25,833 nt of DNA from a virus. Positions within the stretch are counted from its first letter, which is position 1, and each line of letters opens with the position of its first letter. Below are positions 920 to 23,998 of the stretch, piece by piece. The stretch is from positions 1 to 25,833 of IMG/VR virus record IMGVR_UViG_3300026094_000728. One strand, 5' to 3'. The position numbers and the translations under genes are program-made. The notes under the pieces were generated by a model. It made no database searches, was not told where the DNA came from, and was given only the letters and a program-made list of their open reading frames with translations.

Positions 920-1150
920 CTATCTACCGTAGTGGCTTTCTGATTTACGCTTACTTTTTTTACCGCCAGAGGCCTGACCTTGTTTAGCAGCCCAAGAAGC
1001 TCTTAGTACATCTCTATAGTAGACAACCTGATAACCTGCTACATCTACAAACTCTAAGTAGCCATTCTTTTCATAGTTATATATTGACGCAGCAGTGATG
1101 CCACCTTTATAAGCAGCTTCCCTCACAGTCATAAGTGGACCTTTATTCAT
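920..1150 (-). CDS. small helix-turn-helix DNA-binding protein (HTH paralogue 3)
   Basis: A 76-residue protein with an N-terminal helix-turn-helix: LMTVREAAYKGGITAASIYNY, then a wing-like NGYLEF...YQVVYYRDVLRASWAA. The shape is that of MerR/excisionase-like winged HTH domains, followed by a basic, Lys/Arg/Ser-rich tail (KKSKRKSES). It is paralogous to the genes ending at 1150 and 1885: all share a GYLE step and YYRxxLRAxWxA. The ATG overlaps the TAA of the preceding gene by one base (TAATG), which indicates translational coupling. Its likely role is transcriptional control of phage genes or an excisionase-like architectural role. The family cannot be named from the sequence alone. Confidence 0.65.
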   Translation of the reverse strand: MNKGPLMTVREAAYKGGITAASIYNYEKNGYLEFVDVAGYQVVYYRDVLRASWAAKQGQASGGKKSKRKSESHYGR

Positions 1151-3094: not shown

Positions 3095-3367
3095 TTAGGA
3101 CAGATACCTGAAATCCGTGCTTGATTTTATTACTTCAATTGCCCACTCGGCTGCTTCGGTGTTTTCTTGATTAGCTATTCTATCTTTAAACAAGTCAATA
3201 ATTCTACGCTTTTCAGCAACTTCACCTGCAGCAGCAAACTCCCTAGCCAACTTAGACTCTTCTTCATCACGTAAAGTAGAACCCAAAGCAACCTTAGCCA
3301 GCCTCTCGCGCTCTAGCCTTGCTCCAAGCTCTAGTTCAGATATATTATTCTCCATCATAATTTCCAT
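3095..3367 (-). CDS. small helical protein of unknown function
   Basis: A 90-residue, highly charged, probably all-helical protein (ELELGARLERERLAKVAL, then EEESKLAREFAAAGEVAEKR). Its start lies inside the end of halogenase 1. Three ATGs are available at 3367, 3358 and 3355, and a GGAAATT just before 3358 makes MMENN plausible. The overlap of about 10-20 bases means it is the last gene coupled to the halogenase pair. No cysteines, membrane segments or catalytic motifs are visible. It could be an accessory protein of the halogenase or simply the next early gene. Confidence 0.5.
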   Translation of the reverse strand: MEIMMENNISELELGARLERERLAKVALGSTLRDEEESKLAREFAAAGEVAEKRRIIDLFKDRIANQENTEAAEWAIEVIKSSTDFRYLS

Positions 3368-4856
3368 TTCTGCCTGCAGGAACTATATATAGGCCAGGTC
3401 CTTTATTTAAAGCCTCCCTTGTATCATAAAACCAACGCATAAAGTTGGTTCCTGTACCTGTGTATATATTTAAACTTTTTAGGATGCCTTTAGCTGTGTC
3501 CTTACTAATTAAATCTAAACCTGCAAGAGTCCATGACCAAAGACCTTTTGTGCTGAAATCGTTTAAGTAATAACCACCAGGAGCACTGTATTTAGCTTTT
3601 TCAATGTAGTCAGAGACTCTTTCTGTTATAAGATTATCATTCTTAATTCTTCTCCAGAAATCAGTGTCATCTCTACCTCCTTGATAGTGCAAGACCGTGA
3701 AGTCTTTGTATTCTTCGGTTATTTTATGAATAAAGGAATTATAAAGTTTTCTATTTAAATCATTAATAGTTCTATCTTTAGAAAAAGAAAAGTATTCTTT
3801 CACTAAAGTCAACATTTGCAGTATTGTTGTATGAATTGCCGTGGCCTCCAAGGGTTCTATAAAAGTAGAGGATAGGCCCAAGGAAACGCAGTTTTTTACC
3901 CAAAAGTCTTCAGATTTACCAGAGTCAAACTTTAAGTTACCTAAAGGCTCTATTTTATGTTTAAGCTTTTTCTCTATCTCTTCCTGAGCCTGCTCGGGGG
4001 TTAAATGGTTACTCGAGTATACATATCCAGCACCCCTTCTGCTCTGCAGAGGTGTGTTCCACATCCAACCAGAGCCCATGGCCTGGGCAACAGTTATAGG
4101 CATTACAGAACCCCCTTCCTTGTGTTCAATAATAAAAGGAAGCGCACTATCTACTGGGAGTACATCTTTGTAGCTAACCCAACCAACATCAAGTCTTTTC
4201 ATCAAAAGTCTTTTAAATCCAGTAGCATCAATAAACAAATCCCCACCAACCCGAGACCCATCATCCAAAACTACACTTTCAATATTGCCTTCAGTGTCCA
4301 GCTCTACATCATTAATAGGTGCGTCTATTACTTTTAACCTAGGGTCATAGCTGAGGAAGTCTTTCATAAAGGGTGCAAATTCATTACCATCAAAGTGAAC
4401 AGCCATATCTCCGTTCAAAGGCATCTTACGCATTTCATATGCCAATCCCAGTTCCGAGGCCACATGGGCCTGCCTAGTGCCAAAACGCGCCACTGCCTGT
4501 AAAAAAGCATAATCTGCTGGAAGCCCACTTGTCCAAGAGGGCGTTATTGGACCGAAGTAGTCTCCTGGTCTCTTAGACCACCCTCTATGTAAAATTCCAT
4601 ATTTGTAAAAACCTCTAGTTTTGTTGAAAAACTTTTGGATGTCTACAGCGGGAATTTTATTCGAATCAATGTCGTCATTATAGGTAAATTCATCTGTAAG
4701 AAGGTCTAAAAGTAGTCCACTAGAGGCTTCGCCGGCACCAATAACACCTATTGATGAAGGTTCTATCACTGTGACGCTTTCTGCCTGAGAGCCCCTTAGC
4801 ACCGTAAAAGCGGCAATCCAACCTGCAGTTCCACCACCGACAATGGTTACATCCAT
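3345..4856 (-). CDS. flavin-dependent tryptophan-halogenase-family protein (halogenase 1, catalytic residues present)
   Basis: Length 503 is normal for the PrnA/RebH family, which uses FADH2, O2 and chloride or bromide to make HOX that is channelled to a lysine near the substrate. Seen here: the FAD-binding VGGGTAGWIAA at residues 6-16; GFYKYGILHRGW at 82-93, in which Lys85 lines up with the catalytic Lys79 of PrnA; HFDGNEFAPF near 154; DLFIDATGF near 206; WMWNTP at 264-269, equivalent to the WxWxIP motif (Ile replaced by Thr); LGLSSTFIEPLEATAI near 327-341, equivalent to PrnA's ...EPLESTGI with Glu337 (PrnA Glu346) and Thr339 conserved but Ser and Gly changed to Ala; and RDDTDFW. AGGGAG lies eight bases before the ATG. 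Substrate, halide and flavin reductase are unknown, and no reductase is visible in the window. Cyanophages carry related genes, also of unknown function. Confidence 0.85.
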   Translation of the reverse strand: MDVTIVGGGTAGWIAAFTVLRGSQAESVTVIEPSSIGVIGAGEASSGLLLDLLTDEFTYNDDIDSNKIPAVDIQKFFNKTRGFYKYGILHRGWSKRPGDYFGPITPSWTSGLPADYAFLQAVARFGTRQAHVASELGLAYEMRKMPLNGDMAVHFDGNEFAPFMKDFLSYDPRLKVIDAPINDVELDTEGNIESVVLDDGSRVGGDLFIDATGFKRLLMKRLDVGWVSYKDVLPVDSALPFIIEHKEGGSVMPITVAQAMGSGWMWNTPLQSRRGAGYVYSSNHLTPEQAQEEIEKKLKHKIEPLGNLKFDSGKSEDFWVKNCVSLGLSSTFIEPLEATAIHTTILQMLTLVKEYFSFSKDRTINDLNRKLYNSFIHKITEEYKDFTVLHYQGGRDDTDFWRRIKNDNLITERVSDYIEKAKYSAPGGYYLNDFSTKGLWSWTLAGLDLISKDTAKGILKSLNIYTGTGTNFMRWFYDTREALNKGPGLYIVPAGRNGNYDGE

Positions 4857-5137
4857 AAAATAAACTCCCTAATTAAAACGTATGAAGACAAGAATATCCA
4901 AGCCAAGTTCAAAATAATAATGGTTGGTAGTGTCTTAACTGTAGAAGACCATACTAGAGCAAAACTAGTTGCAAGAGAAAACAGATATAGCCACCAGATA
5001 AAAATCCCCCAAATAAGACCAGGAATAATTATTATAATTTTAATCATGAAAGCAAAGAACTCGACTGTGTTGGCTCTATTCCAGTAACTCAAGTCTTTTA
5101 TAGTTGCTAGGGCTTTAACCCATTCCGGTTTCTTCAA
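4847..5137 (-). CDS. membrane protein wedged between the two halogenase genes
   Basis: The start chosen is TTG at 5137, because a perfect GGAGG lies eight bases upstream; the frame is open a further 11 codons upstream without a good site. The 96-residue product starts with a charged, Trp-containing amphipathic segment (KKPEWVKALATIKDLSYW). It then has long hydrophobic stretches: FFAFMIKIIIIIPGLIWGIFIWWLYLF (two segments or a hairpin), then SLATSFALVW and TIIILNLAWIFLSSYVLI. Two to four transmembrane helices are expected. Its start overlaps the end of halogenase 2 by 23 bases and its end overlaps halogenase 1 by 10. The three products are therefore made together. A membrane anchor or transporter for the halogenase product is a hypothesis only. 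Confidence 0.65.
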   Translation of the reverse strand: MKKPEWVKALATIKDLSYWNRANTVEFFAFMIKIIIIIPGLIWGIFIWWLYLFSLATSFALVWSSTVKTLPTIIILNLAWIFLSSYVLIREFILWM

Positions 5138-6710
5138 GCCCTTCACCTCCCACTGCCTTGAGTTCTTCAAGCATAGTTCTATGGTCCATAAGACTGTTTC
5201 CTGTAACTTCTGCCTGTTGAACCTTTAAAATATCGTAATTGTCTCTACTAGCCTCTATATAAATAGAGTCCTCAACAGATTCTTTAATAGCTTCAATTAA
5301 AGGTTTGTATTTAATACCTAACCCAATGTAATAATAAGAGTCTACGTTAAATAAGGAACCAAGCTTAGAAACGTCCCAAGCGTCAAGTGTTCTCCAATCC
5401 ATCACCTCTAATAAGCTATGTAGACCGTAGGGCGCATTAGATTTAGTAAATTTAGACCAAAACTCGTTGTAAGCCTCCCTACCAAAATAACTAAACTGTA
5501 ATAAAGAGGCCATGCCATCGACAATCATAGAATGTAATTCTTTATGCCTTTTCTCCCACTTTTCAGATTGATTGCGAACCATCTCTGCCCTAGTAAAGAC
5601 TAGCTCAAGCTCAACTAACATTGACCAAATTCCAACAGCTTCTTTGTTTTCTAGCAACATCGAAGATGCGCCTGAAAGAAGCACATTTGACTTTAAAGGA
5701 CTGTCCACATAGCCGTAGTTATATGTTTCTTCCGAGTAATCTTCAATATCTGTGTTCAAAAGGCGCTCAGCCTCTTCCTTTGCAGAATTAACATCTAACA
5801 ACTCATTGTCGTAAACATATCCGCACTTAATTTCACTTTGCAGCGGAGTTTTCCACAAATATCCATACTCCATAGCTACTAATTCGGTATAGGCCGGCAG
5901 CTTCTTAGGAGCCCTCATATTGAATGTAATTGCCGAGTTAGCCGGGAACGCCTGAGACATATCAACCCAGACTGCCTTTCCAAATACTTCTTTCCATGTA
6001 GTGAGCCCATACCCGGACACATCTACTATAAAGTGAGTGCTAAAAGATTTACCACTGTCTAAAGATATACGTGAAACCTGTTTACTGCTATTTTCCTCAT
6101 AAGACTCCACGTTTCCCGAAAGGATTTCTACATTACGACTTTTAGCTATGGCAAGCAAAAACTCCTCGGCTTCTTTAGTTTTTAAATTTAATCCAAAATC
6201 CACCATTGGACCATACAAGTTTAGAGGGTCACTGACTACACCATCTGCAAATGAACTTCCCAGTTTTCTAAACCCGACCTTTTTTAATTTAGAGGCTCTA
6301 GAAACCAAATCACTTTTGTCAGAAGATTCACTATTAGATACAGCTTGACCAAAAGCTCCAGGGTACGCAAACAACTGGGCCTCATTGTGCATATCGTGTA
6401 TGCCAATGTTTTCAACAGTTCGATATGGATTCATAAAAGAATCGTATTCACCTCCGCCACGGAAGTTTACATATTTAGTACCATTACAAAAAGCAGCATC
6501 AGCCAATCTAACTAAATCCGTAACAGAAATACTCAGATGCCTGAAAGTCATAGTTATGTGGGGAGGCAGTCTAACAAAATCACTTTGCTCTTCTTCAGTG
6601 TTGATATAGACAATCTTAAACTCGTTCGGCCTATGGCTATGAACCATTTCTAAATACAAAGCAGCCATTACCCCTGATACGCCGCTACCTACTACAGTTA
6701 TGTTCTTCAC
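5115..6710 (-). CDS. divergent halogenase-like flavoprotein (halogenase 2)
   Basis: This 531-residue protein starts VVGSGVSGVMAALYL, a good FAD-binding GxGxxG loop, and has the halogenase-fold landmarks in order. CNGTKYVNF at 75-83 is similar to PrnA's NGAFK region, with Lys79 a possible catalytic equivalent. FIVDVSGYGL near 227 is the second flavin-contact strand. YGYLWKTPLQ at 282-291 stands for WxWxIP, but the first Trp is Tyr. LLSGASSMLLENKEAVGIW at 344-362 keeps Glu357, but the halide-contacting Thr is Val359. The RDDT-like segment is absent. It could be an inactive or altered-specificity partner of halogenase 1, or a different flavin monooxygenase. It starts with GTG in a GTGA overlap with the stop of the preceding gene, so it is translationally coupled to it. 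Confidence 0.7.
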   Translation of the reverse strand: MKNITVVGSGVSGVMAALYLEMVHSHRPNEFKIVYINTEEEQSDFVRLPPHITMTFRHLSISVTDLVRLADAAFCNGTKYVNFRGGGEYDSFMNPYRTVENIGIHDMHNEAQLFAYPGAFGQAVSNSESSDKSDLVSRASKLKKVGFRKLGSSFADGVVSDPLNLYGPMVDFGLNLKTKEAEEFLLAIAKSRNVEILSGNVESYEENSSKQVSRISLDSGKSFSTHFIVDVSGYGLTTWKEVFGKAVWVDMSQAFPANSAITFNMRAPKKLPAYTELVAMEYGYLWKTPLQSEIKCGYVYDNELLDVNSAKEEAERLLNTDIEDYSEETYNYGYVDSPLKSNVLLSGASSMLLENKEAVGIWSMLVELELVFTRAEMVRNQSEKWEKRHKELHSMIVDGMASLLQFSYFGREAYNEFWSKFTKSNAPYGLHSLLEVMDWRTLDAWDVSKLGSLFNVDSYYYIGLGIKYKPLIEAIKESVEDSIYIEASRDNYDILKVQQAEVTGNSLMDHRTMLEELKAVGGEGLEETGMG

Positions 6711-7456
6711 TCTTCTTCTTTTTTCATATCAAATTCTTTTTTCTTCCACATAAACTTTTTGTAGAACCCACTTACCATGCTTGTAGATTTCTGAGAGCGT
6801 ACGTAAGCTTTTTTATCTAACTCATCGTTGCCTTCACCTATCCAATTATCTCTTTTAAATGGGATAATTTGAAATAAAGGAGTTCCCCTAGGGATTATGC
6901 CTTCAAAGTCTTCCTGTAAGTAGAAAGGAAAATTTCCGGGAGGTAGTAGAGAATCAGAATCATGTATGCCAGACAAAGTTATAAAAGGTAAATCGTATCT
7001 GTTTAAGGGGTGTGTATATAGTGCAGAATAGCCTTTAGGCAGTTTTACAGAAAAAGGCTGTAGCCAGACATATTGCTTCTCATCGTGCCCTGCTGGTATA
7101 GGAAGTTCCTCAAAGCCAGTACCGTTCCTACCATCAACCATGTTAGGGTCTAGCGCCCATACAAACTCAACTTGCCCGTTAACACTTCGCTTTACCTGCA
7201 GGTCTTGCCATAAGGTGGCTACGTAACCTACAGTTAGAGTATCCAAGAAAGGGATGCAGTATTTGACACCTAAATTGCCACCAGCATTTGTAACTTTGTT
7301 TTTTATTTCGGGCTTGTTACCGTAGGTAAGTCTAGGAGAGTTTTTATACCATTTAGGTATCTGAGACGCAGCCGGGACTGGATAGTCCATATAATCTGCA
7401 GTACGACCAAACTCTATCTTTTTAGGCTCCTTACCTAGTTTTAAAAACTCAAACAC
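6707..7456 (-). CDS. conserved phage protein, DUF6065-like (paralogue A)
   Basis: A 249-residue soluble protein sharing one core with the genes at 7829 and 10475: IPKWYKNSP near residue 38; KYCIPFLDTLTVGYVATLW near 65; a beta-rich middle; and then KLPKGYSALYTHPLNRYDLP, SGIHDSD, FEGIIPRGTPLFQIIPFKRDNW. The layout (PGY...PxNR...L.GI.DTD...F.I..GTP..QxIP.KR) resembles, from memory, DUF6065 proteins; no search was possible. Similar proteins occur in marine phages. The enzymatic role is unknown. The start is GTG at 7456, inside the end of the preceding gene, and its stop overlaps halogenase 2, so this is the paralogue most tightly tied to the halogenases. The C-terminus is basic and then acidic (KKKEFDMKKEEE). 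Confidence 0.6.
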   Translation of the reverse strand: MFEFLKLGKEPKKIEFGRTADYMDYPVPAASQIPKWYKNSPRLTYGNKPEIKNKVTNAGGNLGVKYCIPFLDTLTVGYVATLWQDLQVKRSVNGQVEFVWALDPNMVDGRNGTGFEELPIPAGHDEKQYVWLQPFSVKLPKGYSALYTHPLNRYDLPFITLSGIHDSDSLLPPGNFPFYLQEDFEGIIPRGTPLFQIIPFKRDNWIGEGNDELDKKAYVRSQKSTSMVSGFYKKFMWKKKEFDMKKEEE

Positions 7457-7805
7457 TATTTTCTCGCTCTTCCTTTAGCAGCTGTTTTTTAATTTTATAC
7501 TCCTCAGCTAGCGCCTCCTGCGTTGTATTCTTATAGTGAACACGCTGTACCCGGTCAATCCTAAAGCTTCTCATAGCTGGCATTTTCTTGGGACCACCCC
7601 AAACATCAATCCAATCAACGTCCAACTTCTCGTTGTACACATACTTAACAAACCTAAATCTACCTCGCTCACCCTTAATCTTTAGCTCAGTGCCTTTGAC
7701 AACGTGACGACCATTTATTTGCATTTCTTCCTTAATAGTCCAGTCAGCAATAGGAGCGCCGTTATCAATAGCGGCGTCTATTACTTTTTGTTTCTGTCTG
7801 GCCAC
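7449..7805 (-). CDS. small actinophage-type protein of unknown function
   Basis: A GTG start is preceded by GGAGAAGG four bases upstream. The 118-residue protein has a basic N-terminus, then WTIKEEMQINGRHVVKGTEL, KGERGRFRFVKYVY, VDWIDVWGGPKKMPAMRSFR and IDRVQRVHYKN, and ends in a charged helix. The 'GERGRFRF...W(I/V)DV.GG......RSFR..R(V/I)..VH' pattern is one I recall from hypothetical proteins of actinobacteriophages, possibly the DUF7246 group, although that name is uncertain. The short beta-rich core suggests a nucleic-acid-binding fold but this is not demonstrated. It is placed between paralogues A and B. Confidence 0.5.
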   Translation of the reverse strand: MARQKQKVIDAAIDNGAPIADWTIKEEMQINGRHVVKGTELKIKGERGRFRFVKYVYNEKLDVDWIDVWGGPKKMPAMRSFRIDRVQRVHYKNTTQEALAEEYKIKKQLLKEERENSV

Positions 7806-7828
7806 GTTGCCTTCTCCTATCTAATTCG

Positions 7829-8566
7829 CTACTTATATTCCTTGCGGTTCCAAAAGTAGCGCTTGTAGGCCTTCCACATACGGGTTCCAATAATACTACG
7901 ACCTGTGATTATGTCCTCGTCTTCTTTATACTCTTTTTGAACAGAGTGACTCCAAGATTCTCTTTTAATTGGTATCATTTGTATCATTGGAGTACCAGCT
8001 TCAATAATTCCTTCAAAGCCCTCTTTTATTACAAACGGGAAGTTTGTTGGAATTCTATACTCGTCAGTATCTACAATTCCAGTTAAAGATATAAACGGTA
8101 AATCATACCTATTTGTTGGATGAGTAAACAAAACAGAGTACCCAGGAGGAGTTTTGACTCGATATGGAGCTGTGAACTTATAAGGCTTCCTGTGATATCC
8201 TTCTGGCATCATTTGGTCTGGTGTTTGCTCAACGCCATGGCTAGAAATAAAGTCAAATTCAGCTATTTGCCACTTAAACTGGGGATATCCGGCTTCGTCT
8301 AAGGTTACCTGAAGGTCGCAAGGGAAAGGAATTGTGTAGCCAGCGGTCATACTGTCAAACATTGGCATGCAAGCTTTCATTGTTAGATTGCCGCCCTCCT
8401 CTCCAATAAAGGTAAACTTGCCCTCACCTTCTAAGAAAGTACTAAATCTTCTCCACCAGTCAGGTAAAGACCTTGTCATCGCCTGAGGCTGGTCTATCAT
8501 ATTTTTAGTAAACTCAAAGTCAGAATGGAACTCAACCTCTAACCTAGGTTTTTTATTAAATATCAT
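7829..8566 (-). CDS. conserved phage protein, DUF6065-like (paralogue B)
   Basis: The start used is the ATG at 8566, which overlaps the recombinase stop as ATGA; an in-frame codon at 8581 is less likely. The 245-residue protein carries the family signature: LPDWWRRF near residue 41; MKACMPMFDSMTAGYTIPF near 70; KTPPGYSVLFTHPTNRYDLP; LTGIVDTDEY; NFPFVIKEGFEGIIEAGTP; and MIQMIPIKRESW. Compared with A and C it has WW rather than WY and MPM instead of IPF, so the three copies are old duplicates rather than recent repeats. Conserved Asn-Arg, Asp and Lys-Arg positions across all three suggest a retained binding or catalytic site. The function is unknown. Confidence 0.6.
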   Translation of the reverse strand: MIFNKKPRLEVEFHSDFEFTKNMIDQPQAMTRSLPDWWRRFSTFLEGEGKFTFIGEEGGNLTMKACMPMFDSMTAGYTIPFPCDLQVTLDEAGYPQFKWQIAEFDFISSHGVEQTPDQMMPEGYHRKPYKFTAPYRVKTPPGYSVLFTHPTNRYDLPFISLTGIVDTDEYRIPTNFPFVIKEGFEGIIEAGTPMIQMIPIKRESWSHSVQKEYKEDEDIITGRSIIGTRMWKAYKRYFWNRKEYK

Positions 8567-9225
8567 GATGCACGCTTCCAAAAATTAGATACTGTCGTAG
8601 CATACCACAAGCCTCCGTTTTTCGTAGGGTATTTTTCTAAGTTGAGCTTCTGGGCTATCTTGTTGTATGACATACCCGCCTCCCTGCAATCGCTAATGAT
8701 ATTCATTATCTCGTCTCTACTATCTGCCTTGGGCCCTAAGTCTTTTCCCCACACCAATCCCTGTTGTCGTCGGTCCTTGTGGATATCTTTTGCACGCTCG
8801 GCGATAATGCCACGCTCCATCTCCGCGAGCGCCGACATCACAGTAGTCACAAACCTCCCCTGGTAAGTAGAAGTGTCTAGGTTCAGGTCCAACAGAATCA
8901 ATCTCCACCCCTCCTTGGCAGACTTATCCACTATTTGCAGGAAGTCACTGGTTGAACGAGACAATCTGTCGATTCTAGTAACAATAAGGGCGTCTACAAT
9001 TCCTTGTTCTAGCATCTCAAAGCACTCTTGCAGTTTGGGCCTGCCCTTGATGTTTTTACCAGAACGACCTTCCTCACGCACCAGTTCCCAATCATTAAAC
9101 CCGTGGAACTCAGCTGCTGTAATTAGCTGTCGCTCCTGAGCGTCTAGGGATATACCATCACTTACCTGCATAAGTGTTGATACACGTGCGTACAACAAAC
9201 ACTTACCAGTAGGGGCGTCTGACAT
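8563..9225 (-). CDS. small serine recombinase (resolvase/invertase type)
   Basis: The start at 9225 is favoured by GGAG ten bases upstream; a GTG at 9255 is an alternative. The 220-residue protein starts with a resolvase catalytic domain: LYARVSTLMQ with Ser16 as nucleophile; EEGRSGKNIKGRPKL; IVTRIDRLSRS at 81-91; and MSALAEMERGIIAERAKD as the start of the long E helix. It ends with a Hin/resolvase-like helix-turn-helix (ISDCREAGMSYNKIAQKLNL ... YATTVSNFWKR). The length is typical of resolvases and invertases, not of large serine integrases. Possible roles are dimer resolution, DNA inversion or moving the surrounding cassette. It is embedded in an operon with overlaps on both sides; no crossover sites or transposon ends were recognised nearby. 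Confidence 0.85.
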   Translation of the reverse strand: MSDAPTGKCLLYARVSTLMQVSDGISLDAQERQLITAAEFHGFNDWELVREEGRSGKNIKGRPKLQECFEMLEQGIVDALIVTRIDRLSRSTSDFLQIVDKSAKEGWRLILLDLNLDTSTYQGRFVTTVMSALAEMERGIIAERAKDIHKDRRQQGLVWGKDLGPKADSRDEIMNIISDCREAGMSYNKIAQKLNLEKYPTKNGGLWYATTVSNFWKRAS

Positions 9226-9445
9226 CTGTCGGCTGCTCCAATCCGAATTCTTCACGTATCCGATACTTAAAACCAGTTATCTCTGGCTTAGGAGATAGAG
9301 GGTACCAGTTGTCTACGAGCTTATTTAGCTTTTTTTCGTTCATAGCCCTCTCTCGCTCTCTCCCGAAAGCATAAGCAAGGGCCAAAAGAACCACTAAAGT
9401 CCACACTGAAACTAAAATAACGATGGCTAACAGTAGTGGAGGCAT
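9203..9445 (-). CDS. small membrane-anchored protein, 80 residues
   Basis: An N-terminal hydrophobic helix (PPLLLAIVILVSVWTLVVLL, ending near residue 27) is followed by a charged, cytoplasmic-type region (FGRERERAMNEKKLNKLV) and a C-terminal WYPLSPKPEITGFKYRIREE segment. No signal-peptidase site is evident, so it is probably a single-pass anchor protein. AGGTAG lies about ten bases before the ATG. The gene is the first after a 120-base spacer that contains a 30-base palindrome, and its end overlaps the recombinase start by 23 bases. It is unrecognised. Confidence 0.55.
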   Translation of the reverse strand: MPPLLLAIVILVSVWTLVVLLALAYAFGRERERAMNEKKLNKLVDNWYPLSPKPEITGFKYRIREEFGLEQPTDVRRPYW

Positions 9446-9465
9446 ATCAATAATTCTACCTTATT

Positions 9466-9495
9466 TTATATAACCTTAGACCTAAGTTTATATAA
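9466..9495. promoter_or_regulatory. 30-base near-perfect palindrome, candidate operator
   Basis: The arms are TTATATAA-C-CTTAG and CTAAG-T-TTATATAA around a central AC. Thirteen of fourteen positions pair; the exception is 9474/9487. It sits 21-50 bases before the ATG of the small membrane-anchored protein, in the longest spacer of this operon (9446-9565). Its TTATATAA ends could also serve as -10-like sequences for either strand. A dimeric repressor site or a promoter/operator is the favoured reading; an RNA stem would be AT-rich and weak. The same spacer holds a GGTTTTAGCCAAAACC hairpin near 9511-9526. Confidence 0.45.
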
Positions 9496-9565
9496 CAAAA
9501 GTTGTACATAGGGTTTTAGCCAAAACCAGCAAAATACTGGTCAACAATATGCTATATTTAGTACC

Positions 9566-10300
9566 TTAATACTCAGGTCTTTGAATCTTAAACCCAAGCC
9601 TCTTACCAGATAGCTTGTCGTTGCTTGAAAGGTCTATGACACTTGGTGGATTATCTCTCCACTCTCCTTTTGGCTCGTCGGAGCCTTCCCAGAATGGATA
9701 GACTTTCGACCCGACAGGCAGGTCGTCGAAATAATCGTTACCCAACCTAAGATGAATCTCAGTCATAACTCCGCCACGAAATTCAACATTAAATCCTGTA
9801 AAGCTGGATTCATTTAAAAACTCTGGCTTGACAATAAAACTTTCTACAGGCGGAGCTTCATCTACATTTAATTTTTCCCAGAAGGCAAATCTAGTTAAAT
9901 CTTTATCGCTTTTATGGAAGCCTTGCATAATGCTGCTAGCCACCCAAGAGTTTCCTCGGTCAACTGAACGCCTATAGTCCACCGATATTTGATTACCAGC
10001 CAACCACTCACACCAAAAATACCCTGGAGGAACAATTTCGCCGTTTAGCATTGCTCCTTTGTGCTCAGTAAGGTCATAATCAAATTTTTGCGCCCCCAAT
10101 CCCATCCCGTAAAGGTTATAGATAGGTCTAATAATATAAGAACCAGACTTATCCGGGGCCGTAGCAGAAGGCCCCGCTTTTAAGCCTTGACGAACAGCTA
10201 ACTCGAGCTTGTTAAACACCCAGCGGAAGTTGCTATACCCATATCGGCGCCATGTCTCAAAATCTTCAATGTTTTCAACATCCTTATATGTTTCAGACAC
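9566..10300 (-). CDS. conserved phage protein of unknown function
   Basis: GTG start with AAAGG six bases upstream. The 244-residue soluble protein begins SETYKDVENIEDFETWRRYG, with aromatic-rich motifs YSNFRWVFNKLELA, GSYIIRPIYNLYGMGLGAQ and VPPGYFWCEWLAGNQISVDY. It then has a beta-rich C-terminal half (FNVEFRGGVMTEIHLRLGND and so on) ending in KIQRPEY. I associate this sequence style with hypothetical proteins of marine T4-like and other aquatic phages. The 'RPIYNxxGMG' and 'GYFWxEwL.G..iSvDy' segments look like a conserved nucleotide- or ligand-binding core, vaguely ATP-grasp-like; that is unproven. Its start overlaps the preceding zinc-finger-like gene by eight bases. Confidence 0.55.
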   Translation of the reverse strand: MSETYKDVENIEDFETWRRYGYSNFRWVFNKLELAVRQGLKAGPSATAPDKSGSYIIRPIYNLYGMGLGAQKFDYDLTEHKGAMLNGEIVPPGYFWCEWLAGNQISVDYRRSVDRGNSWVASSIMQGFHKSDKDLTRFAFWEKLNVDEAPPVESFIVKPEFLNESSFTGFNVEFRGGVMTEIHLRLGNDYFDDLPVGSKVYPFWEGSDEPKGEWRDNPPSVIDLSSNDKLSGKRLGFKIQRPEY

Positions 10301-10463
10301 TGTCAGCCTTTACAACGGACAGTCTGGCACCACATTTGATGCAGTTTTCATACTTTCTGCCGGTATATGGGCAAGTCGCCCAGTCAGACACCTTGTGCCT
10401 ACAAAATTGTTGCTTAAACAGCTTTTTTGTCAGAGATATAAATGTTTCTTCTTCACCGTGCAC
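10293..10463 (-). CDS. 56-residue zinc-finger-like protein
   Basis: GTG start at 10463 has AAGGA five to six bases upstream. The product has QQFCRHKVSDWATCPYTGRK followed by YENCIKCGARLSVV. The Cys/His residues C-x2-H (Cys21, His23 region), Cys31, and C-x2-C (Cys41, Cys44) can form one treble-clef or ribbon-type zinc site. It lies 11 bases after paralogue C and overlaps the next gene by eight bases. It resembles short phage zinc-ribbon proteins but cannot be placed in a named family. A DNA- or RNA-binding or structural role is possible. Confidence 0.55.
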   Translation of the reverse strand: MHGEEETFISLTKKLFKQQFCRHKVSDWATCPYTGRKYENCIKCGARLSVVKADSV

Positions 10464-10474
10464 AATTTTCCTTA

Positions 10475-11197
10475 CTATTTAAAGTTCTTCTTAGTCCAAA
10501 ATTTATCTTTGTAGGCTCCCCAAAACTTATTATGAGCTCTAATGCTTTCATAAATAACCTCCTTGGAGTACTTTTCTGCTTTGGATACCCAATTATCTCT
10601 CTTAAACGGGATAATTTGATACATAGGGGTACCTGCTGGTATTAACCCAGAAAAGCCCTTTTTAATATAAAAAGGATGGTTACCGTCATTGTCCTGGTGG
10701 TACTTATCAGCATCAATAATTCCGGACAAAGTTTGAAAAGGTAGGTCATCTCTATTAAGGGGGTGGGTTAGCAGTGCGCTATACCCTTTAGGAAGTTTCG
10801 GGACCCACTGAGTCTTCCATTCAAGTTCCACAGGGTAGTATGATTGAACTTGATGGGAACCTATAAGTTGAGAAGAAGGCCTATCCTTAAAGGGTTCTGG
10901 TTGGCTGGCAAAGTAAAATAAAAAACCATCTTCGTCAAACTCATGCGGCTCTATATAGATATCTGTCCAAGTACACTGAACGTAGCCGACCCTAAAAGTG
11001 TCTGCAAACGGGACGCACATTTTCACAGAGGCGTCTACAGAACCCCCGTCACTACTAAACTTTGGCTTTCTACCGTTTAAAAATGCTGGCATATTTTTCC
11101 ACCACTCCGGCATAGATTTACCAACCGGTTGCGGCCTTGGCACAACACCCTCGGCCATTTCGCTCAACGGTTTAAAAGTTATTTTTTTACTTTTCAT
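10475..11197 (-). CDS. conserved phage protein, DUF6065-like (paralogue C)
   Basis: The start is taken as the ATG at 11197; a GTG at 11203 is equally possible because neither has a clear Shine-Dalgarno site. The 240-residue protein has the same landmarks as A and B: MPEWWKNMPAF; VKMCVPFADTFRVGYVQCTW; LPKGYSALLTHPLNRDDLP; LSGIIDADKY; PFYIKKGFSGLIPAGTP; and MYQIIPFKRDNW. The identical final block KGYSAL...THPLNR.DLPF and IIPFKRDNW makes C closer to A than to B. It is the first gene of the chain leading to the halogenases. Function unknown. Confidence 0.6.
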   Translation of the reverse strand: MKSKKITFKPLSEMAEGVVPRPQPVGKSMPEWWKNMPAFLNGRKPKFSSDGGSVDASVKMCVPFADTFRVGYVQCTWTDIYIEPHEFDEDGFLFYFASQPEPFKDRPSSQLIGSHQVQSYYPVELEWKTQWVPKLPKGYSALLTHPLNRDDLPFQTLSGIIDADKYHQDNDGNHPFYIKKGFSGLIPAGTPMYQIIPFKRDNWVSKAEKYSKEVIYESIRAHNKFWGAYKDKFWTKKNFK

Positions 11198-11238
11198 AGA
11201 CACAAAAATACTACACTAAAACCCTAAATTGCGCTACA

Positions 11239-17006: not shown

Positions 17007-17402
17007 ATGAGTAATTCCACGAAAGTTTACAACTCAGATGTAAACACAAATAACTCTGCCGTACATAATATTGTAGCGGACCAGGGAGCAACCTTTTCAT
17101 ACACAGTTGTCTATAAGGATGCTAAGCGGAAGGTGATTGACGTCAGTGGATACACCGCACGGATGCAACTAAGACCTGCAACCAACTCGACCACTGTGAC
17201 GGCAGAGCTGACCACCGAAAATGGGCGAATCACCGTATACGGCAGCGAAGGAAGGTTTGACCTTTTAATTTCTGCAGCAGACATGTCCGCAATAAATGCG
17301 GATACCTATGTATATGATTTAGAAGTAGTAGCTCCGGTAAGCGGCTTTGTTGAGAAGCTTATCCTGGGCAACTTTACCGTGCGTCCGGAGGTAACTAGGT
17401 AA
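17007..17402 (+). CDS. baseplate/BppU-like structural protein
   Basis: A 131-residue protein resembling the N-terminal domain of BppU-type baseplate proteins and other phage tail proteins: VADQGATFSYTVVYKDAKRK, VIDVSGYTARMQLRPA, then GRITVYGSEGRFDLLISAAD, YVYDLEVVAP and LILGNFTVRPEVT. This is a beta-sandwich that usually attaches receptor-binding or fibre parts to the tail tip. Its stop overlaps the next start as TAATG, and the fibre genes follow directly. It may be the adaptor for these fibres. Confidence 0.6.
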   Translation: MSNSTKVYNSDVNTNNSAVHNIVADQGATFSYTVVYKDAKRKVIDVSGYTARMQLRPATNSTTVTAELTTENGRITVYGSEGRFDLLISAADMSAINADTYVYDLEVVAPVSGFVEKLILGNFTVRPEVTR

Positions 17403-17812
17403 TGGCTCAGTTTAGCAACCGTGTTGAGATTTCACGTGGAGGTCCACAAGGGCCCCTAGGACCCACAGGTCCCGCAGGTCCTGCAGGTGGACCCACCGGA
17501 CCTACAGGACCGGAGGGACAAGCTGGAGCGTTTGCAACTACTTTCCCTTCAGAACCATATGTGGGCCAGGTATGGGCAGACTTAGAGTCTGGAAAGTTTT
17601 ATCTATATGTAGACGACGGTGGTAGTCAACAGTGGGTTCAGGTTGCGACTGCGCCTCAAGGGCCCACAGGGCCAGCAGGCGAAGACGGAGCTAATGGAAA
17701 TGCTTCTCTATACACCCCTGCTGTAGAAACCGATTGGGATGTTGTTCCGACCACAATTACGGAAGCATTAGATGAAGTTGCAGCACGACTAAGAACCTTG
17801 GAGAACCTATAA
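17402..17812 (+). CDS. short collagen-like tail/fibre protein
   Basis: A 136-residue protein. After a short N-terminus ([11 protein letters not shown]) it has two runs of Gly-x-y triplets: [20 protein letters not shown] near 15-40 and [18 protein letters not shown] near 90-103. Between them is a small beta module ([20 protein letters not shown] ... QQWVQV) like those in the next gene. The C-terminus, [18 protein letters not shown], is a short trimeric coiled-coil-type helix, as in many phage fibres. It ends one base before the start of the large fibre, so the two are cotranslated. Confidence 0.7.
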
Positions 17813-17813
17813 C

Positions 17814-20800
17814 ATGGCGATAAATTTTCCAGCTAGCCCTAACATAGGGGATGAGTATACATATGACGGGATAACTTATGTGTGGACCGGGACTGTATGG
17901 GATATTCAATACTCAGAAATAGTCGGTCCAACCGGTCCTACTGGTTCATCTGGCATTCAAGGTCCAACCGGTCCTCAGGGCCCCTTAGGTGCTACCGGCC
18001 CCCAAGGTGAAAGTATTACGGGACCTCAAGGTGAAGAAGGCGAGCCAGGACCAACCGGTCCTCAAGGTACTCCAGGTGCTGTTGGAGGTCAAGGACCAAC
18101 CGGACCTACTGGAGCTAGTGGAGCTGATGGTGCTACTGGACCAACCGGTCCCGAGGGCGCTATTGGTCCAACAGGTGCTGATGGCCTTGAAGGTGCAACT
18201 GGTCCTACAGGTTCTACCGGACCTACCGGACAGTCTGGTCCGCAGGGCTCTACGGGTCCAACAGGTGCAGATGGCGTGCAGGGTGATACTGGTCCACAGG
18301 GTATTAAGGGAGATATTGGAGCAACTGGACCACAGGGTCTAGAAGGTTCTCAGGGACCAACTGGACCTCAGGGTCTAAGTATTACTGGACCTACAGGTGC
18401 AACTGGTGCGACAGGTTCTGACGGAATTCAAGGTGAGGCCGGCCCTACTGGTCCTCAGGGCTCTACTGGACCCACAGGTGCGACTGGAGACCTAGGACCA
18501 ACAGGTCCCGCAGGCTCTACTGGTGAAGCTGGACCTACTGGACCTACAGGTGCACAGGGTACCTCTATCAACCTCCTTGGGTCTGTTGCCACAACAGGTG
18601 ACCTACCTACAGAAGGTAACTCTGTAAATGATGCATATATCGTAGAAGCAGATAGCAATCTTTACGTGTGGGACGGGACCACATTTAACGATGTAGGTCA
18701 GATTGTTGGTCCTCAGGGTGAGATTGGACCTCAGGGTGATTTAGGACCTACAGGTCCCGTAGGTGGTACAGGTCCAACAGGACCAACAGGCTCAGAGGGT
18801 GTGACAGGTCCTCAAGGTGAATTAGGACCAACCGGGGCAACTGGACCTCAAGGACCTTTAGGTCCAACAGGTGCTGATGGTGTTGACGGTGGCACGGGCC
18901 CAACAGGAAGCACAGGACCAACTGGTGCAACAGGTCCCCAAGGTGGCCAGGGCGAGGTTGGACTTAATTGGCGCGGTGAGTGGTCTCCAGCCGAAACTTA
19001 TAATTACAGTGATGCTGTTGTTTATGCTGACAGCTCTTACTTCGCACTAAGCACAAGCACTGGCGTAGAGCCGCAGGGTAGTAGCCAGTGGCAAATAATT
19101 GCTCTTAAGGGTAGTAAAGGTGATACAGGTTCTCAAGGTGCAACTGGTGTTCCAGGAGCACAGGGGCCGACTGGTCCGACTGGAAGCCTAGGACCGACAG
19201 GCTCAAGCGGGCCTACAGGGAGTACTGGTCCAACCGGACCTCAGGGAATTACAGGACCTACCGGTTCTGACGGTATTGAAGGTCCAACCGGACCTCAGGG
19301 GGTCGGGTTAAACTTCCGTGGCTCGGTTTCTATTGAGACAGATTTACCTGCAGAAAATAACTCAGTAAACGATGCACTTGTTGTTATTCAAACACGTCAA
19401 ATTTATGTATGGAATGGCACCACCTGGGACCCAGTTAGCCAGTTTATTGGTGAGACAGGCCCAACAGGTTCTCAAGGTCTACTAGGACCAACAGGTCCTA
19501 AGGGTGACCAGGGTGAGCAGGGAATTCAGGGCCCAAAGGGTGATACCGGAGATACAGGTGCAACTGGAGACTTAGGACCTACAGGTTCAACTGGTGATAC
19601 AGGACCTACTGGTCCTCAGGGTATTCAAGGTGTGACTGGTCCTACAGGTCCACGAGGTGAAAACTTAAACCTAACCACCTCAGTTGCTACGTTTGGCGAC
19701 CTGCCAAGCAGCGAGAATGGATTGAATGATGCCCGCCTTGTAGAGCAGTCCGGAGAACTGTATTTTTGGGATGGCATTGAATGGGTAAATGCTGGACAGT
19801 TTACTGGTGATGTTGGTCCAATTGGTCCCACCGGGCCTAGGGGTCTCCCTGTAAACTTACTTGGTTCTGTTGACTTAATCTCTAATTTACCCCTGAGTGG
19901 CAATCAAGACAATGACGCTTATGTTGTTTTAGAAGATAACTTTGTCTATATTTGGAACGCAAGTCTCGGCGAATGGGTAGACATTGCTCAGTTTAAGGGT
20001 GATAAAGGTGATGTAGGTCCTCAGGGTCCTCTAGGTCCTACTGGTCCTCAGGGTACTGCCATCGAACTAATTGGTTCAGTGTTTGACACTTCATACTTGC
20101 CAAGAGAAACAAACAATATTGTATTTACGATAACTGTAGAGGCTACGGACGCTGGAAATCGATACTTTATTAATGGAGAAGAAACTCCTAATATTCACTT
20201 GCACAAGGGTGGAACTTATCTTTTCGACCAATATAACCCTTCCAACGATACTCACGAAGTGTATTTATCGGAGACGAAGAACGGCCATCACTCCGGACCT
20301 GGAGGCGTAGTTGATTATAAATACACTGAAGGGGTGTCATATTCAGGCACTGCAGGTGTTGACGGTAGGTTAACAATAGTTGTATCAGAAACTGCACCTG
20401 ATACCTTATATCTAGTTTGTGTAAACCATTCAAACATGTATGGTGATGCAGCAGCTAACGTTACAACCAATCAGTTAAATGATGCATATGTTGTACAAGA
20501 TATTGGAGACTTATTTGTTTGGACTGGTAGCGACTGGTCAAATGTAGGTCAGATTGTTGGACCAACTGGTCCGCAGGGTATTCAAGGTGAATTAGGACCT
20601 ACCGGACCCACGGGCCCAACTGGCCCCACCGGTTCTCAGGGTCTGGTCGGACCCCAAGGTTTGCTTGGACCTCAGGGTGACCTTGGACCTACCGGACCTA
20701 CAGGGCCAACCGGACCTACAGGCCCCTCTGGTCCTCAGGGTGTATCTCTTAATGTACTGGGACAAGTATTAACTCCAAATGAGTTGCCTCAAGGGGCAAC

Positions 20801-21170
20801 TAGGAATGATGCTTACTATGTTCAGTCTGAGGGCTCTATCTATGTTTGGAATGGGGCTACGTGGATTTTTTCTGGTAACTACGTAGGGCCTACAGGTTCA
20901 ACTGGCCCCGCAGGTGAGGCTGGAGTTGACGGCCCTACCGGCCCTACTGGCCCTGCAGGTGATACAGGTAGATATATTACCCAAGCAAATGAGCCAGACC
21001 CGCTAGCGTATACTGAAGGTATAGCTTGGTTTAACACAAATACAGCAAAAACATTTGTCTTGCAAGATAATACGTGGGTGGAAATTAACTCAGGTGTGGT
21101 TGGTGCTACAGGGCCGCAAGGTATAGACGGTCAGTTTGCTATATCTCAGGCTTGGTGGTTCGGTGTATAA
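17814..21170 (+). CDS. collagen-like tail fibre with repeated beta modules and an inserted cupredoxin-like domain
   Basis: An 1118-residue fibre. The N-terminus (1-34) is a small beta module ([20 protein letters not shown]). It is followed by long Gly-Pro-Thr/Gly-x-y triplet runs (about 37-250, 298-380, 433-495, 545-615, 909-975, 1025-1050) that should form collagen-type triple helices. Between them sit modules of the form 'LGSV..LP...N..NDAYVV...LYVW.G..W', near 252-297, 497-545, 617-664, 680-728, 749-915 and 978-1024. The 749-915 copy is split by a cupredoxin-like domain (about 768-884). A module at 382-432 differs and looks like a carbohydrate-binding CBM5/12-type unit. The C-terminus (1053-1118) is a further beta module. 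It is probably a trimeric receptor-binding fibre. Confidence 0.8.
17930..21130 (+). repeat. degenerate collagen-coding DNA repeats
   Basis: Scattered runs of near-identical 9-base units (GGTCCAACC, GGACCTACA, GGTCCTCAG and similar) code for Gly-Pro-Thr and Gly-Pro-Gln triplets. They are interrupted by unique beta-module sequence. Such tracts allow slippage and recombination, so triplet number may differ between related phages. The repeats are a property of the fibre gene and not a separate element. Confidence 0.8.
20115..20465 (+). other. cupredoxin-like domain within the large fibre
   Basis: Residues about 768-884 ([40 protein letters not shown], then [17 protein letters not shown]) form the Greek-key pattern of small blue-copper proteins. 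Candidate ligands are His814, Cys869, His872 and Met875. The spacing C-x2-H-x2-M is that of amicyanin-type copper sites. Similar domains are often seen in marine phage structural proteins. Here it lies between the two halves of a repeated module (LPRETNN | [11 protein letters not shown]). Copper binding is not proven. Confidence 0.65.
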
Positions 21171-21227
21171 TTTAGTTAGTTAGTTACCTTATGTTTTAAT
21201 AATGACTTATAGAAAGAGGAAGAGTTA

Positions 21228-23969
21228 ATGCCAGGATATCTAGGTGGAGGCTCAGCGAGCGGTGGCGGCGCCGGTGGAGAAATTTCATTCCCTAAAGAAT
21301 TTACTGACCCGGTAACTAAGCTACGTGTATCAAATCCAGAAACCTTGATTGATACCGACTTCGAGTACGGTCTTCAGCCCACCAAGTGGGAAACAGTTGA
21401 GCTTATCAACAACACTCCTTCGTTTTTCTCGAAGTCTGGTGACACAACTATTCCTGGAATTGCATCTATCACAACAAACGCTGGAACCCGAGAGATTACA
21501 GTAAAAACCGAGTTAGCTCACGGGCTAGCTGTAGGTATTCCGATTAACGTTCAAGGAACAAAATCTATTACTGCAGATGGTTCCTACATTATTAACTCTA
21601 TTCCAGACACATTTACATTTACCTATCTTTGTAAAGATGACCAACCCGAGACACTATCTATCCAAGACCTCTACTCATCTATCATTACAGGAGAGTTCTT
21701 TCAAGGTTCACAGATTAAAATCTCAGACTCTGCTGGAATTATTACAGACGGTGCAGACATTTCTACACTTACGGTGACTACAGACTCTACTCATGGGTTT
21801 GGTACGAATACTCCTTTCTACTTTCTAAACATTAATTCGACAATTAGCCAGCAGTTTGATGCTTCTAATACTTCAGCTCGCTCGTTTGACTCTTCAAATA
21901 GCGCTACAGCTCAGTCATTTGACGGCTCTAATACACTGTCAACAATTAACGTTGATTACAGCAACAGCGCGGTTGTCGGCGGAACAATCAGTCAAATAAC
22001 TGATACAGACATCGAAAACAACACGGTAACAGTCCAACACACTACCGAAAATTTTAACAGCCTATCTATAGGTGACCCCCTATATTACGATGTCCTTACA
22101 GGGAGTGGATTCTTCTCAGAAAACCCACGTGGTGTAGTTTTTATAAAAGATATTAGTAATGTAGGAACGACTTCCTCTACTTTTGACGTGAGCTCACTGC
22201 CAGACGGCGATGTTGTTGCTATACCATCTACCCTCTCTGGCACATTTCAAATTGCTAATCAAGCTCGCACTTTTGCTGGCAACAACGTTGACGTAGAAAT
22301 TCAAACCGTGCTTACAGTAGTAGATGACGACCCTGACACTGTTGATGCAGCAAACGAACTAGGTGTTGTTGGAGTTGTGAATTCTTACAGTGGAAGTTTG
22401 ATTACTATCGACTCCGAATCTGGAGAAGTATTTCCTGTACCCGAAGGACTTGCCAATGTGTGGTACCAAGGCACGATGGTACTTTACACAGTTGAAGATA
22501 TAACGGACGGCGGACTCGTGACAGAAGAGGGTACAGCGGCTGATAATCTCACTAACAATACAACTTACTTTGTAGACAGTTTTTTCCAACAAGGAAGCAC
22601 TAATCGTTATAGCTTTACAATTAGGCCTCTGCCTAACGGAGACCCAGTAGAAGGTATTACTGGTGGTTCCGGTATTCAGAAATTTACGCAAATTGGCGTA
22701 TCTCTAGATAAAAACATATTTCACGTATATGAAAATGGTTATGAAGAAGGCGACATGTTACGCTATGACTACCCGGATGGCGGAAGGTTTAGCGTAACTG
22801 ACCCAGATAATGACGAAGTAAATTTTTATTTCGTAGATACTAAATATGATGCACATAACTTTGATGTTCTATCTACCGTGGGAGAAGTTCTACCTAGGAC
22901 GGTAAGTCGTACAGGCGAAGATGCTCAGACTAGCCCTATCGAACCCACTCCCGTTACAGCTGTTGGATTAGAGTCACCTTTGACGTTTGCTGTAACCAGC
23001 GGCACCTTGCCAACCGGCTTGACCTTGAATACGTCAACAGGAGTTGTTAGCGGTACTCCTCAAGAGGTTATCGCTGAGCCCGGTAGAGAAGTCATTATTA
23101 CTTGTACTGACGCTAATGGGCAAACAGCTTTTCAGGTCCACACCTATCAGTTTAACCAGCCACCATTCCTATACTCATTTAACTCGGCTACTTTTAGCAC
23201 CTCAGGCTCAAGCGGCCGTGAAGGACCAAACGTTAATAACGCCAGAAATGGTCTAGGTCAGTCTTGGGTTAACACATACCTAAACATGAACTCTAGAGGT
23301 ACGCAATTGTGGACCGTCCCGCAGGCTGGAACCTACCGAATAACTGCTCGAGGTTCTGGCGGGGGTCGCGCTAACGGCTGGGGTCAACAAGGCCGAGGTG
23401 TAACAATGCGTGGCGACTTTCAGCTGCAGCAAGGTGAAGTACTAAAAATTGCTATTGGCACGAGAGGGGAGTATGATTACGGCTGGTCCGGCGGCGGCGG
23501 GGGCTCATTTGTTGCAAAAGAAGACAATACTCCTCTAATTGTTGCCGGTGGCGGTGGCGGCGGCTCTGCAAATTACAGCTATGACGATGCTAACACAGGG
23601 CGTAGCGGAGGGAACGCCAATTACAGTGGAGGAAGTTCTAACGGTAATGGCGGCGGAGGCCGTTACTATCAAGGTGGAGGCGGAGGCTTCTACAATAATG
23701 GACAAAGTAATAGTTACGGCGGCAAGGCATTTATTAATGGCGCTCGAGGCGGGACCAACAGCGGCAGAACAGGCGGCTTTGGTGGCGGTGGCACAGGTTC
23801 GTACTACTATAGTTACGGAGCTGGAGGCGGGGGCGGCTGGTCCGGCGGGGGAGCAGGAGATTACGGTAGGAATGCAGCCGGCGGAGGCTCGTACAACGAC
23901 GGAAATAGCCAGTCAAATCAAAATGGTACAAATCGTAGTAACGGCTACGTAAGTATTACAAGACTGTAG
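21228..23969 (+). CDS. large tail fibre protein with Ig-like and glycine-rich C-terminal domains
   Basis: A 913-residue protein. GAGG lies about eight bases before the ATG. The N-terminus has a Gly-rich start (GYLGGGSASGGGAGG) and then EISFPKEFTDPVTKLRVSNP, like attachment regions of aquatic phage fibres. The region to about 560 is Ser/Thr/Asp-rich with beta-type repeats, including a three-fold 'FDxSNxxxxxSFD' at about 209-233 and HGL/HGF modules. An Ig-like (He_PIG) unit lies near 578-640 (TFAVTSGTLPTGLTLNTSTG). The C-terminus from 690 (WTVPQAGTYRITARGSGGG) is a glycine-rich domain of the PF12810 type, with GGGGGS and YYYSYGAGGGG stretches. It is probably a receptor-binding or adhesive fibre. 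Confidence 0.7.
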   Translation: MPGYLGGGSASGGGAGGEISFPKEFTDPVTKLRVSNPETLIDTDFEYGLQPTKWETVELINNTPSFFSKSGDTTIPGIASITTNAGTREITVKTELAHGLAVGIPINVQGTKSITADGSYIINSIPDTFTFTYLCKDDQPETLSIQDLYSSIITGEFFQGSQIKISDSAGIITDGADISTLTVTTDSTHGFGTNTPFYFLNINSTISQQFDASNTSARSFDSSNSATAQSFDGSNTLSTINVDYSNSAVVGGTISQITDTDIENNTVTVQHTTENFNSLSIGDPLYYDVLTGSGFFSENPRGVVFIKDISNVGTTSSTFDVSSLPDGDVVAIPSTLSGTFQIANQARTFAGNNVDVEIQTVLTVVDDDPDTVDAANELGVVGVVNSYSGSLITIDSESGEVFPVPEGLANVWYQGTMVLYTVEDITDGGLVTEEGTAADNLTNNTTYFVDSFFQQGSTNRYSFTIRPLPNGDPVEGITGGSGIQKFTQIGVSLDKNIFHVYENGYEEGDMLRYDYPDGGRFSVTDPDNDEVNFYFVDTKYDAHNFDVLSTVGEVLPRTVSRTGEDAQTSPIEPTPVTAVGLESPLTFAVTSGTLPTGLTLNTSTGVVSGTPQEVIAEPGREVIITCTDANGQTAFQVHTYQFNQPPFLYSFNSATFSTSGSSGREGPNVNNARNGLGQSWVNTYLNMNSRGTQLWTVPQAGTYRITARGSGGGRANGWGQQGRGVTMRGDFQLQQGEVLKIAIGTRGEYDYGWSGGGGGSFVAKEDNTPLIVAGGGGGGSANYSYDDANTGRSGGNANYSGGSSNGNGGGGRYYQGGGGGFYNNGQSNSYGGKAFINGARGGTNSGRTGGFGGGGTGSYYYSYGAGGGGGWSGGGAGDYGRNAAGGGSYNDGNSQSNQNGTNRSNGYVSITRL

Positions 23970-23998
23970 AACAATAAAGTAGAGTAGAAGGTATAAAA

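Follow-up and report, generated by a model that had tools for sequence, protein, structure and literature searches.

Halogenases of viruses are usually reported as single auxiliary genes. VirX1 is reportedly the first virus halogenase to have been characterised, and we know of no natural substrate identified for it. The enzyme comes from the cyanophage Syn10 (PMC8407142). The phages syn9, Syn10 and P-TIM40 are deposited with tandem halogenase pairs and a neighbouring gene of the phrog_7084/DUF6065-like family (hereafter DUF), and the second halogenase of syn9, gp42, matches VirX1 (PDB 6qgm) over its full length. Here, a comparable locus is described in a lake-type bacterial virus with the 25,833-base IMG/VR-type record IMGVR_UViG_3300026094_000728, which is referred to in full as the window and of which there is no larger assembly. 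The locus contains a flavin-dependent halogenase (hal1), a divergent halogenase-like flavoprotein (hal2), a small membrane protein, and three DUF paralogues (DUF-A, DUF-B, and DUF-C). A first-pass annotation knew of no described actinophage with two halogenases; novelty of the two-halogenase arrangement is not supported, as the three deposited phages have it. Because the same kinds of genes sit together in many unrelated phages, the arrangement points to an undescribed chemical module, and the explanation favored here, with middling confidence, is a conserved phage cassette that halogenates a small molecule with hal1 as its catalyst.

Co-location in other phages, which the first-pass annotation had proposed to check, proved strong: the trio of halogenase, membrane protein, and DUF recurs in 28 loci, the window being one of them, and these fall into about ten groups that share few flanking genes. 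Scans of IMG/VR with hal1, hal2 or DUF-B as single proteins found nothing, and loci were fetched by alignment-based scans; these loci were chosen by similarity, and rates given for them hold for the sampled sets alone. Of the records in the phage collection, hal1 finds 61 and DUF-B 57; the two sets share five records, from three phages, against 0.07 expected, and in all three (syn9, Syn10, and P-TIM40) there is overlap among the two halogenase genes and DUF. In IMG/VR, DUF is present in about a quarter of the loci fetched for either halogenase clade. Among 46 loci where the two co-occur, 15 have DUF overlapping or adjacent to a halogenase (gap at most 50 nt), and 34 have it within 1 kb of one. 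DUF is commoner where a locus has at least two halogenases (odds ratio 8.4, Fisher p 9e-6, near-duplicate contigs included). Homologs of the membrane protein number 66 among 250 loci fetched for DUF or halogenase; 64 share the locus with a halogenase, and 61 of these 64 lie directly downstream of one, mostly with a 4-nt overlap. The family has at least 548 relatives in IMG/VR, a halogenase adjoins the membrane protein in 63 of the 80 best IMG/VR loci, and the family is a conserved halogenase partner. Since the membrane protein and DUF are also present in halogenase-free loci, the parts of the cassette are frequent partners and not an obligate set.

Two further records, L259 and L260, are syntenic with the window over nearly its whole length. 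The block of DUF-B, DUF7246 protein, DUF-A, hal2, membrane protein, hal1, and a 90-aa gene is kept in both, down to 28-59% identity, and a recombinase gene is kept with it. Because L259 and L260 hold two DUF copies each, along with two halogenases each, DUF-C is extra in the window, and no ortholog of it was found in either record. Of the available records, L260 (3300037348_000049, 129.6 kb) shows the wider genome best. Within 16 kb, the record L195 (4662-16245) has two DUF copies and five halogenase genes, of which the last is truncated by the end of the contig.

The overlapping leftward gene chain of the first-pass annotation agrees with the reading frames: all cassette genes are open frames with zero internal stops, and between 9445 and 3095 successive leftward genes overlap or are separated by at most 23 nt, spaced as in one operon. 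The genes listed in that annotation are present, along with a serine recombinase gene, a DUF7246 gene, and additional small genes in the same run; read leftward, the order is small transmembrane (TM) protein, serine recombinase, DUF-B, DUF7246 protein, DUF-A, hal2, membrane protein, hal1, and 90-aa protein. All genes given coordinates as start..end below lie on the minus strand.

Judged by its sequence, hal1 (3345..4856, 503 aa) is an intact flavin-dependent halogenase with all hallmarks present, as first described. It matches PF04820 at E 3.2e-84 over residues 2-454 of 503 and solved tryptophan halogenases in the PDB at E about 1e-50. Motif comparison, with PrnA K79 and E346 as reference, shows that GGGTAGW, Lys85, Trp264 (GWMWNTP), and Glu337 are kept, the WxWxIP motif reading WMWNTP with Ile changed to Thr. 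With these hallmarks present, the sequence does not support hal1 as a plain monooxygenase. Its orthologs are 49% identical in L259, 45% in L260, and 41% in L137.

The membrane protein gene (4847..5170, three predicted TM helices) overlaps its neighbors on both sides, the hal2 end and the hal1 start, as had been annotated; the hal1 ATG is at 4856 and the membrane protein stop ends at 4847. Its likely start is a TTG at 5137 behind GGAGG, which gives a protein of 96 aa. Pfam, NCBIfam, PHROGs, and 50,697 phage records returned zero matches, and nine members of the family found no match to PQ-loop, MtN3 or MPC in Pfam at E up to 5. The structural model, with a predicted local distance difference test score (pLDDT) of 78.8, resembles SemiSWEET/MPC half-transporters at weak scores: the top nine Foldseek matches are all SemiSWEET, and the best VIA-align match (Z 8.6) is MPC. 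No SemiSWEET was above cut-off in sphingomonad genomes.

DUF-A (6707..7456, overlapping hal2 by 4 nt), DUF-B (7829..8581), and DUF-C (10475..11203) are mutually 34-39% identical (E about 1e-40 or lower), and all three match phrog_7084 at E 4e-39 to 2e-49, the upper value being that of DUF-C. The first-pass annotation was correct in calling them related; its link to DUF6065 is remote, as only DUF-B reaches PF19541 (E 1.6e-4, 21.7 bits versus a curated cut-off of 26.6), while DUF-A and DUF-C do not match it. A remote relation is indicated because 49 of 123 members of the phrog_7084-type family reach PF19541 at E below 0.01. The orthologs of DUF-A, in the same place, are 59% identical in L259 and 55% in L260, and those of DUF-B 48 and 47%. 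DUF6065 is not mentioned in the open-licence papers searched.

The paralogs, formerly proposed as accessory or substrate-linked proteins, are now predicted with high confidence to adopt a dUTPase/dCTP-deaminase fold, and the prediction is well supported. The AlphaFold model of DUF-B, built from a 121-sequence alignment, has a pLDDT of 94.2 and a predicted template modelling score of 0.88. dUTPases and a dCTP deaminase head the Foldseek PDB list (best E 1.8e-3), the top 50 rows of VIA-align are all dUTPases (Z 9.5-10.4 over about 112-138 residues), and BFVD agrees. Profile searches of the PDB with the family returned dUTPases alone, with weak E of 0.6-1.7. The GIVDTD and GTPxxQ motifs of the family align with the motif 3 Asp and motif 4 Gln of dUTPases (GVIDSD, GDRIAQ), and hhalign against sphingomonad dUTPases pairs GIVDTD with GTIDSD and GTPxxQ with GDRVAQ (P 0.004, at a probability of merely 8.7%). 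dUTPase motif 2 (PRS) and motif 5 (GGFGSTG) are not seen in the family consensus, and because they are missing, enzyme activity of the DUF proteins is not supported.

DUF genes in halogenase-free loci adjoin 2-oxoglutarate (2OG)-Fe(II) oxygenases, tail genes, glycosyltransferases or replication genes. One phage group, whose records are halogenase-free, carries the membrane protein, and in some members DUF too, in a helicase-primase-polymerase operon. In the halogenase-free records L325 (4329-6288), L328 (4329-6288), and L082 (9989-11957), DUF lies between the DnaB helicase and DnaG primase genes with the membrane gene just behind the primase; in the related contig L326, the DUF gene is missing from the helicase-primase spot. 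Ribonucleotide reductase (RNR) beside DUF was rejected as a general rule, the window RNR proteins having zero matches in the 250 loci. Sphingomonadales genomes (L089-L101) carry a chromosomal DUF relative, which was present as a single copy in all seven genomes searched in full; its neighbors are not conserved across the order, and these homologs were rejected as a clue.

The second halogenase gene, hal2 (5115..6710, 531 aa), was correctly described as divergent. It matches PF04820 at E 3e-39 over residues 3-470 and retains GxGxxG and Glu357, and the catalytic Lys is absent: Cys75 stands at the position of PyrH Lys75 (AAFCNGTKY versus ATVKNGIRF in L259). The first Trp is replaced by Tyr284, so that GYLWKTP departs from WxWxIP, and the GxGE motif is lost. 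The scan pattern for clade II contained the Lys, and the count was redone on loci found via other patterns; the residue is kept in all 161 of 161 viral halogenase relatives obtained in this way. A frameshift or misalignment was rejected as the source of the motif loss, as the motif alignment is gap-free and the flanking NG-K-Y/F pattern is kept. The loss is specific to the window lineage, because the syntenic orthologs in L259 and L260 retain the Lys. Identity to L259 is 31% for hal2 versus 49% for hal1, 59% for DUF-A, and 78% for the membrane protein; between L259 and L260, hal2 is 43% and hal1 46% identical. The protein belongs to a second viral halogenase clade, where its nearest tree neighbor is the halogenase of phage DSL-LC01, a grouping made unsure by long branches. 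The DSL-LC01 halogenase is itself altered, with Glu changed to Asp and the second Trp to Ser. From these substitutions, hal2 is probably not a normal halogenase and, because its frame is open, reflects either recent loss or a changed role.

If hal1 is the catalyst, host-supplied reduced flavin, O2, and halide would yield hypohalous acid, which Lys85, assisted by Glu337, would relay onto an electron-rich aromatic ring, as expected for the family. The membrane protein may pass substrate or product across the membrane or tether the halogenase there. hal2, which occupies the place of a canonical halogenase in sister phages, probably halogenates no longer and might have a partner role or carry out other flavin chemistry. 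The predicted dUTPase-fold paralogs most likely have a nucleotide-like or phosphorylated substrate or product that they would bind or process. Several observations weigh against a small-molecule cassette of this kind. No flavin reductase gene was found near the cassette. PDB searches gave no sequence match for the membrane protein, and its model matches the half-transporters weakly (Foldseek E no better than 2.8, Z at most 8.6, pLDDT 78.8). The linkage in the window, L259, and L260 is partly plain shared descent, because their whole regions are syntenic. Since the membrane protein and DUF also occur without any halogenase, for example inside a replication operon, neither is strictly part of a halogenation system.

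An unlikely but serious rival is virion-protein modification, in which the halogenases (with 2OG-Fe(II) oxygenases in other phages) would halogenate or hydroxylate tail-fiber residues. It is serious because of the cyanophage gene order, the halogenase pair being directly behind tail-fiber genes in syn9, Syn10, and P-TIM40, and because of the glycine-rich and 2OG-oxygenase neighbors: the 2OG-Fe(II) oxygenase domains PF13759 and PF13640 are each matched by 21 of 122 proteins encoded beside halogenase and DUF, glycine-rich domains by 9 and 3, and tail collar by 3. These counts are raw ones, uncorrected for a background rate, and aquatic phages commonly carry 2OG oxygenases. Collagen-like genes lie 1.4-4 kb before the DSL-LC01 halogenase, and from 17007 onward the window carries tail genes of the collagen-like and glycine-rich kinds, but these are on the opposite strand with RNR genes in between, and protein modification needs neither a dUTPase-like fold nor a membrane partner. 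Quite unlikely is a gathering of independent passenger genes in permissive spots with no joint function. The variable copy number (1-4) and place of DUF would fit such passengers, as would membrane protein and DUF genes free of halogenase and the presence or absence of DUF between helicase and primase in related contigs; yet the same gene pairs keep their stop-start overlaps despite unrelated flanks, and the excess of DUF in loci with several halogenases, near-duplicates included, speaks for association.

That both halogenases are active, acting in sequence on one substrate, is very doubtful. Tandem pairs are common in phages and both copies in L259 and L260 retain the catalytic residues, whereas hal2 of the window has Cys for Lys and Tyr for Trp, is without GxGE, shows a Lys loss found in 0 of 161 relatives, and is less conserved than its neighbors; the two-halogenase module of the first-pass annotation, with both proteins acting as halogenases, is therefore unsupported. 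Halogenation of nucleotides or nucleobases, with dUTPase-fold proteins handling halogenated or competing deoxynucleoside triphosphates (dNTPs), is highly improbable. The predicted fold agrees with it, as does the placing of DUF genes: they lie close to RNR in the window, HF2, and S-RIM4, and some IMG/VR loci have them beside RNR, primase or helicase. Against it, the DUF proteins lack dUTPase motifs 2 and 5, nucleotide genes are missing from the surroundings of many DUF loci, and we know of no halogenase that acts on nucleotides. In its boldest and equally remote form, a pyrimidine or modified nucleobase would be halogenated, the dUTPase-fold proteins would sort or hydrolyze modified or competing dNTPs, and the membrane protein would move precursors; if true, halogenated bases in phage DNA or the nucleotide pool would defeat host defense.

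Other genes complete the locus. Downstream, the 90-aa protein (3095..3367) overlaps the end of hal1 and has orthologs at the same place in L259 and L260. The DUF7246/phrog_1338 protein (7449..7805; PF23904 E 1.6e-24) and the resolvase-type serine recombinase (8563..9255; PF00239 E 7.4e-35), which overlaps DUF-B, are likewise kept in both. No convincing inverted repeats were found near the recombinase, and an invertible segment was rejected on that ground. DUF-C and its neighbor, a phrog_3577 protein (9566..10300, kept in L259), lie upstream of the run, 120-174 nt further. Promoter and terminator scans gave site numbers not above shuffles. Three small leftward proteins (window 920-1150, 1150-1362, and 1885-2202) are mutually related via shared L259/L260 matches. 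Encoded in the region 17402-25831 are a 1118-aa tail-type protein with collagen repeats and a protein with an ALK-type glycine-rich domain; DSL-LC01 has genes like these. For the Actinomycetia phage DSL-LC01, an actinobacterial host is predicted (PMC10611076). The window has a WhiB gene and genes in common with DSL-LC01, so an actinobacterial host is plausible, in line with the actinophage assignment made at first.

Phage halogenases are already known, as are deposited tandem pairs with a DUF neighbor; in the open-licence literature, no paper was found that remarks on the tandem halogenases with their DUF neighbor, and searches for phage halogenase clusters gave none whose listing indicated this module. 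By that literature check, three observations appear to be new: the conserved membrane partner, the dUTPase-like fold of DUF, and the absence of the catalytic Lys from hal2. The recurring partners, a membrane family absent from the libraries searched and a dUTPase-fold family, range over cyanophages, actinophage-like viruses, and uncultured lake phages and provide handles on halogenase substrates. One DUF and one unnamed protein family are thereby turned into testable hypotheses.

Among known systems, the tryptophan halogenases PrnA, RebH, and PyrH share with hal1 the fold family, flavin adenine dinucleotide motif, Lys, Glu, and WxW; hal1 differs in having no surrounding natural-product gene cluster and is only distantly similar in sequence. 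DSL-LC01 is a lake phage which also carries WhiB, a pyrimidine dimer glycosylase, collagen-like tail genes, and a halogenase of the hal2 clade. That halogenase is single and 22% identical to hal2, no DUF or membrane partner was found beside it, and, unlike hal2, it keeps the Lys and has lost the Glu and second Trp. The membrane protein resembles SemiSWEET/MPC half-transporters in its length of about 95 aa and three TM helices, whereas it has no Pfam, NCBIfam or PDB sequence match and its fold scores are within the chance range for helical bundles. The DUF proteins resemble the dUTPase/dCTP deaminase superfamily in their predicted fold, motif 3-like GIVDTD, and motif 4-like GTPxxQxIP, but differ by the missing motifs 2 and 5 and by a length of about 240 aa versus about 150. 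The VirX1 locus of Syn10 and syn9 (gp41-gp42-gp43) has the order hal-hal-DUF, no membrane-family gene found in the phage records, and two halogenases that both keep Lys, Trp, and Glu and are merely 28-29% identical to hal1; like the window, it combines two tandem overlapping halogenase genes, followed in the cyanophages by an overlapping phrog_7084/DUF6065-like gene.

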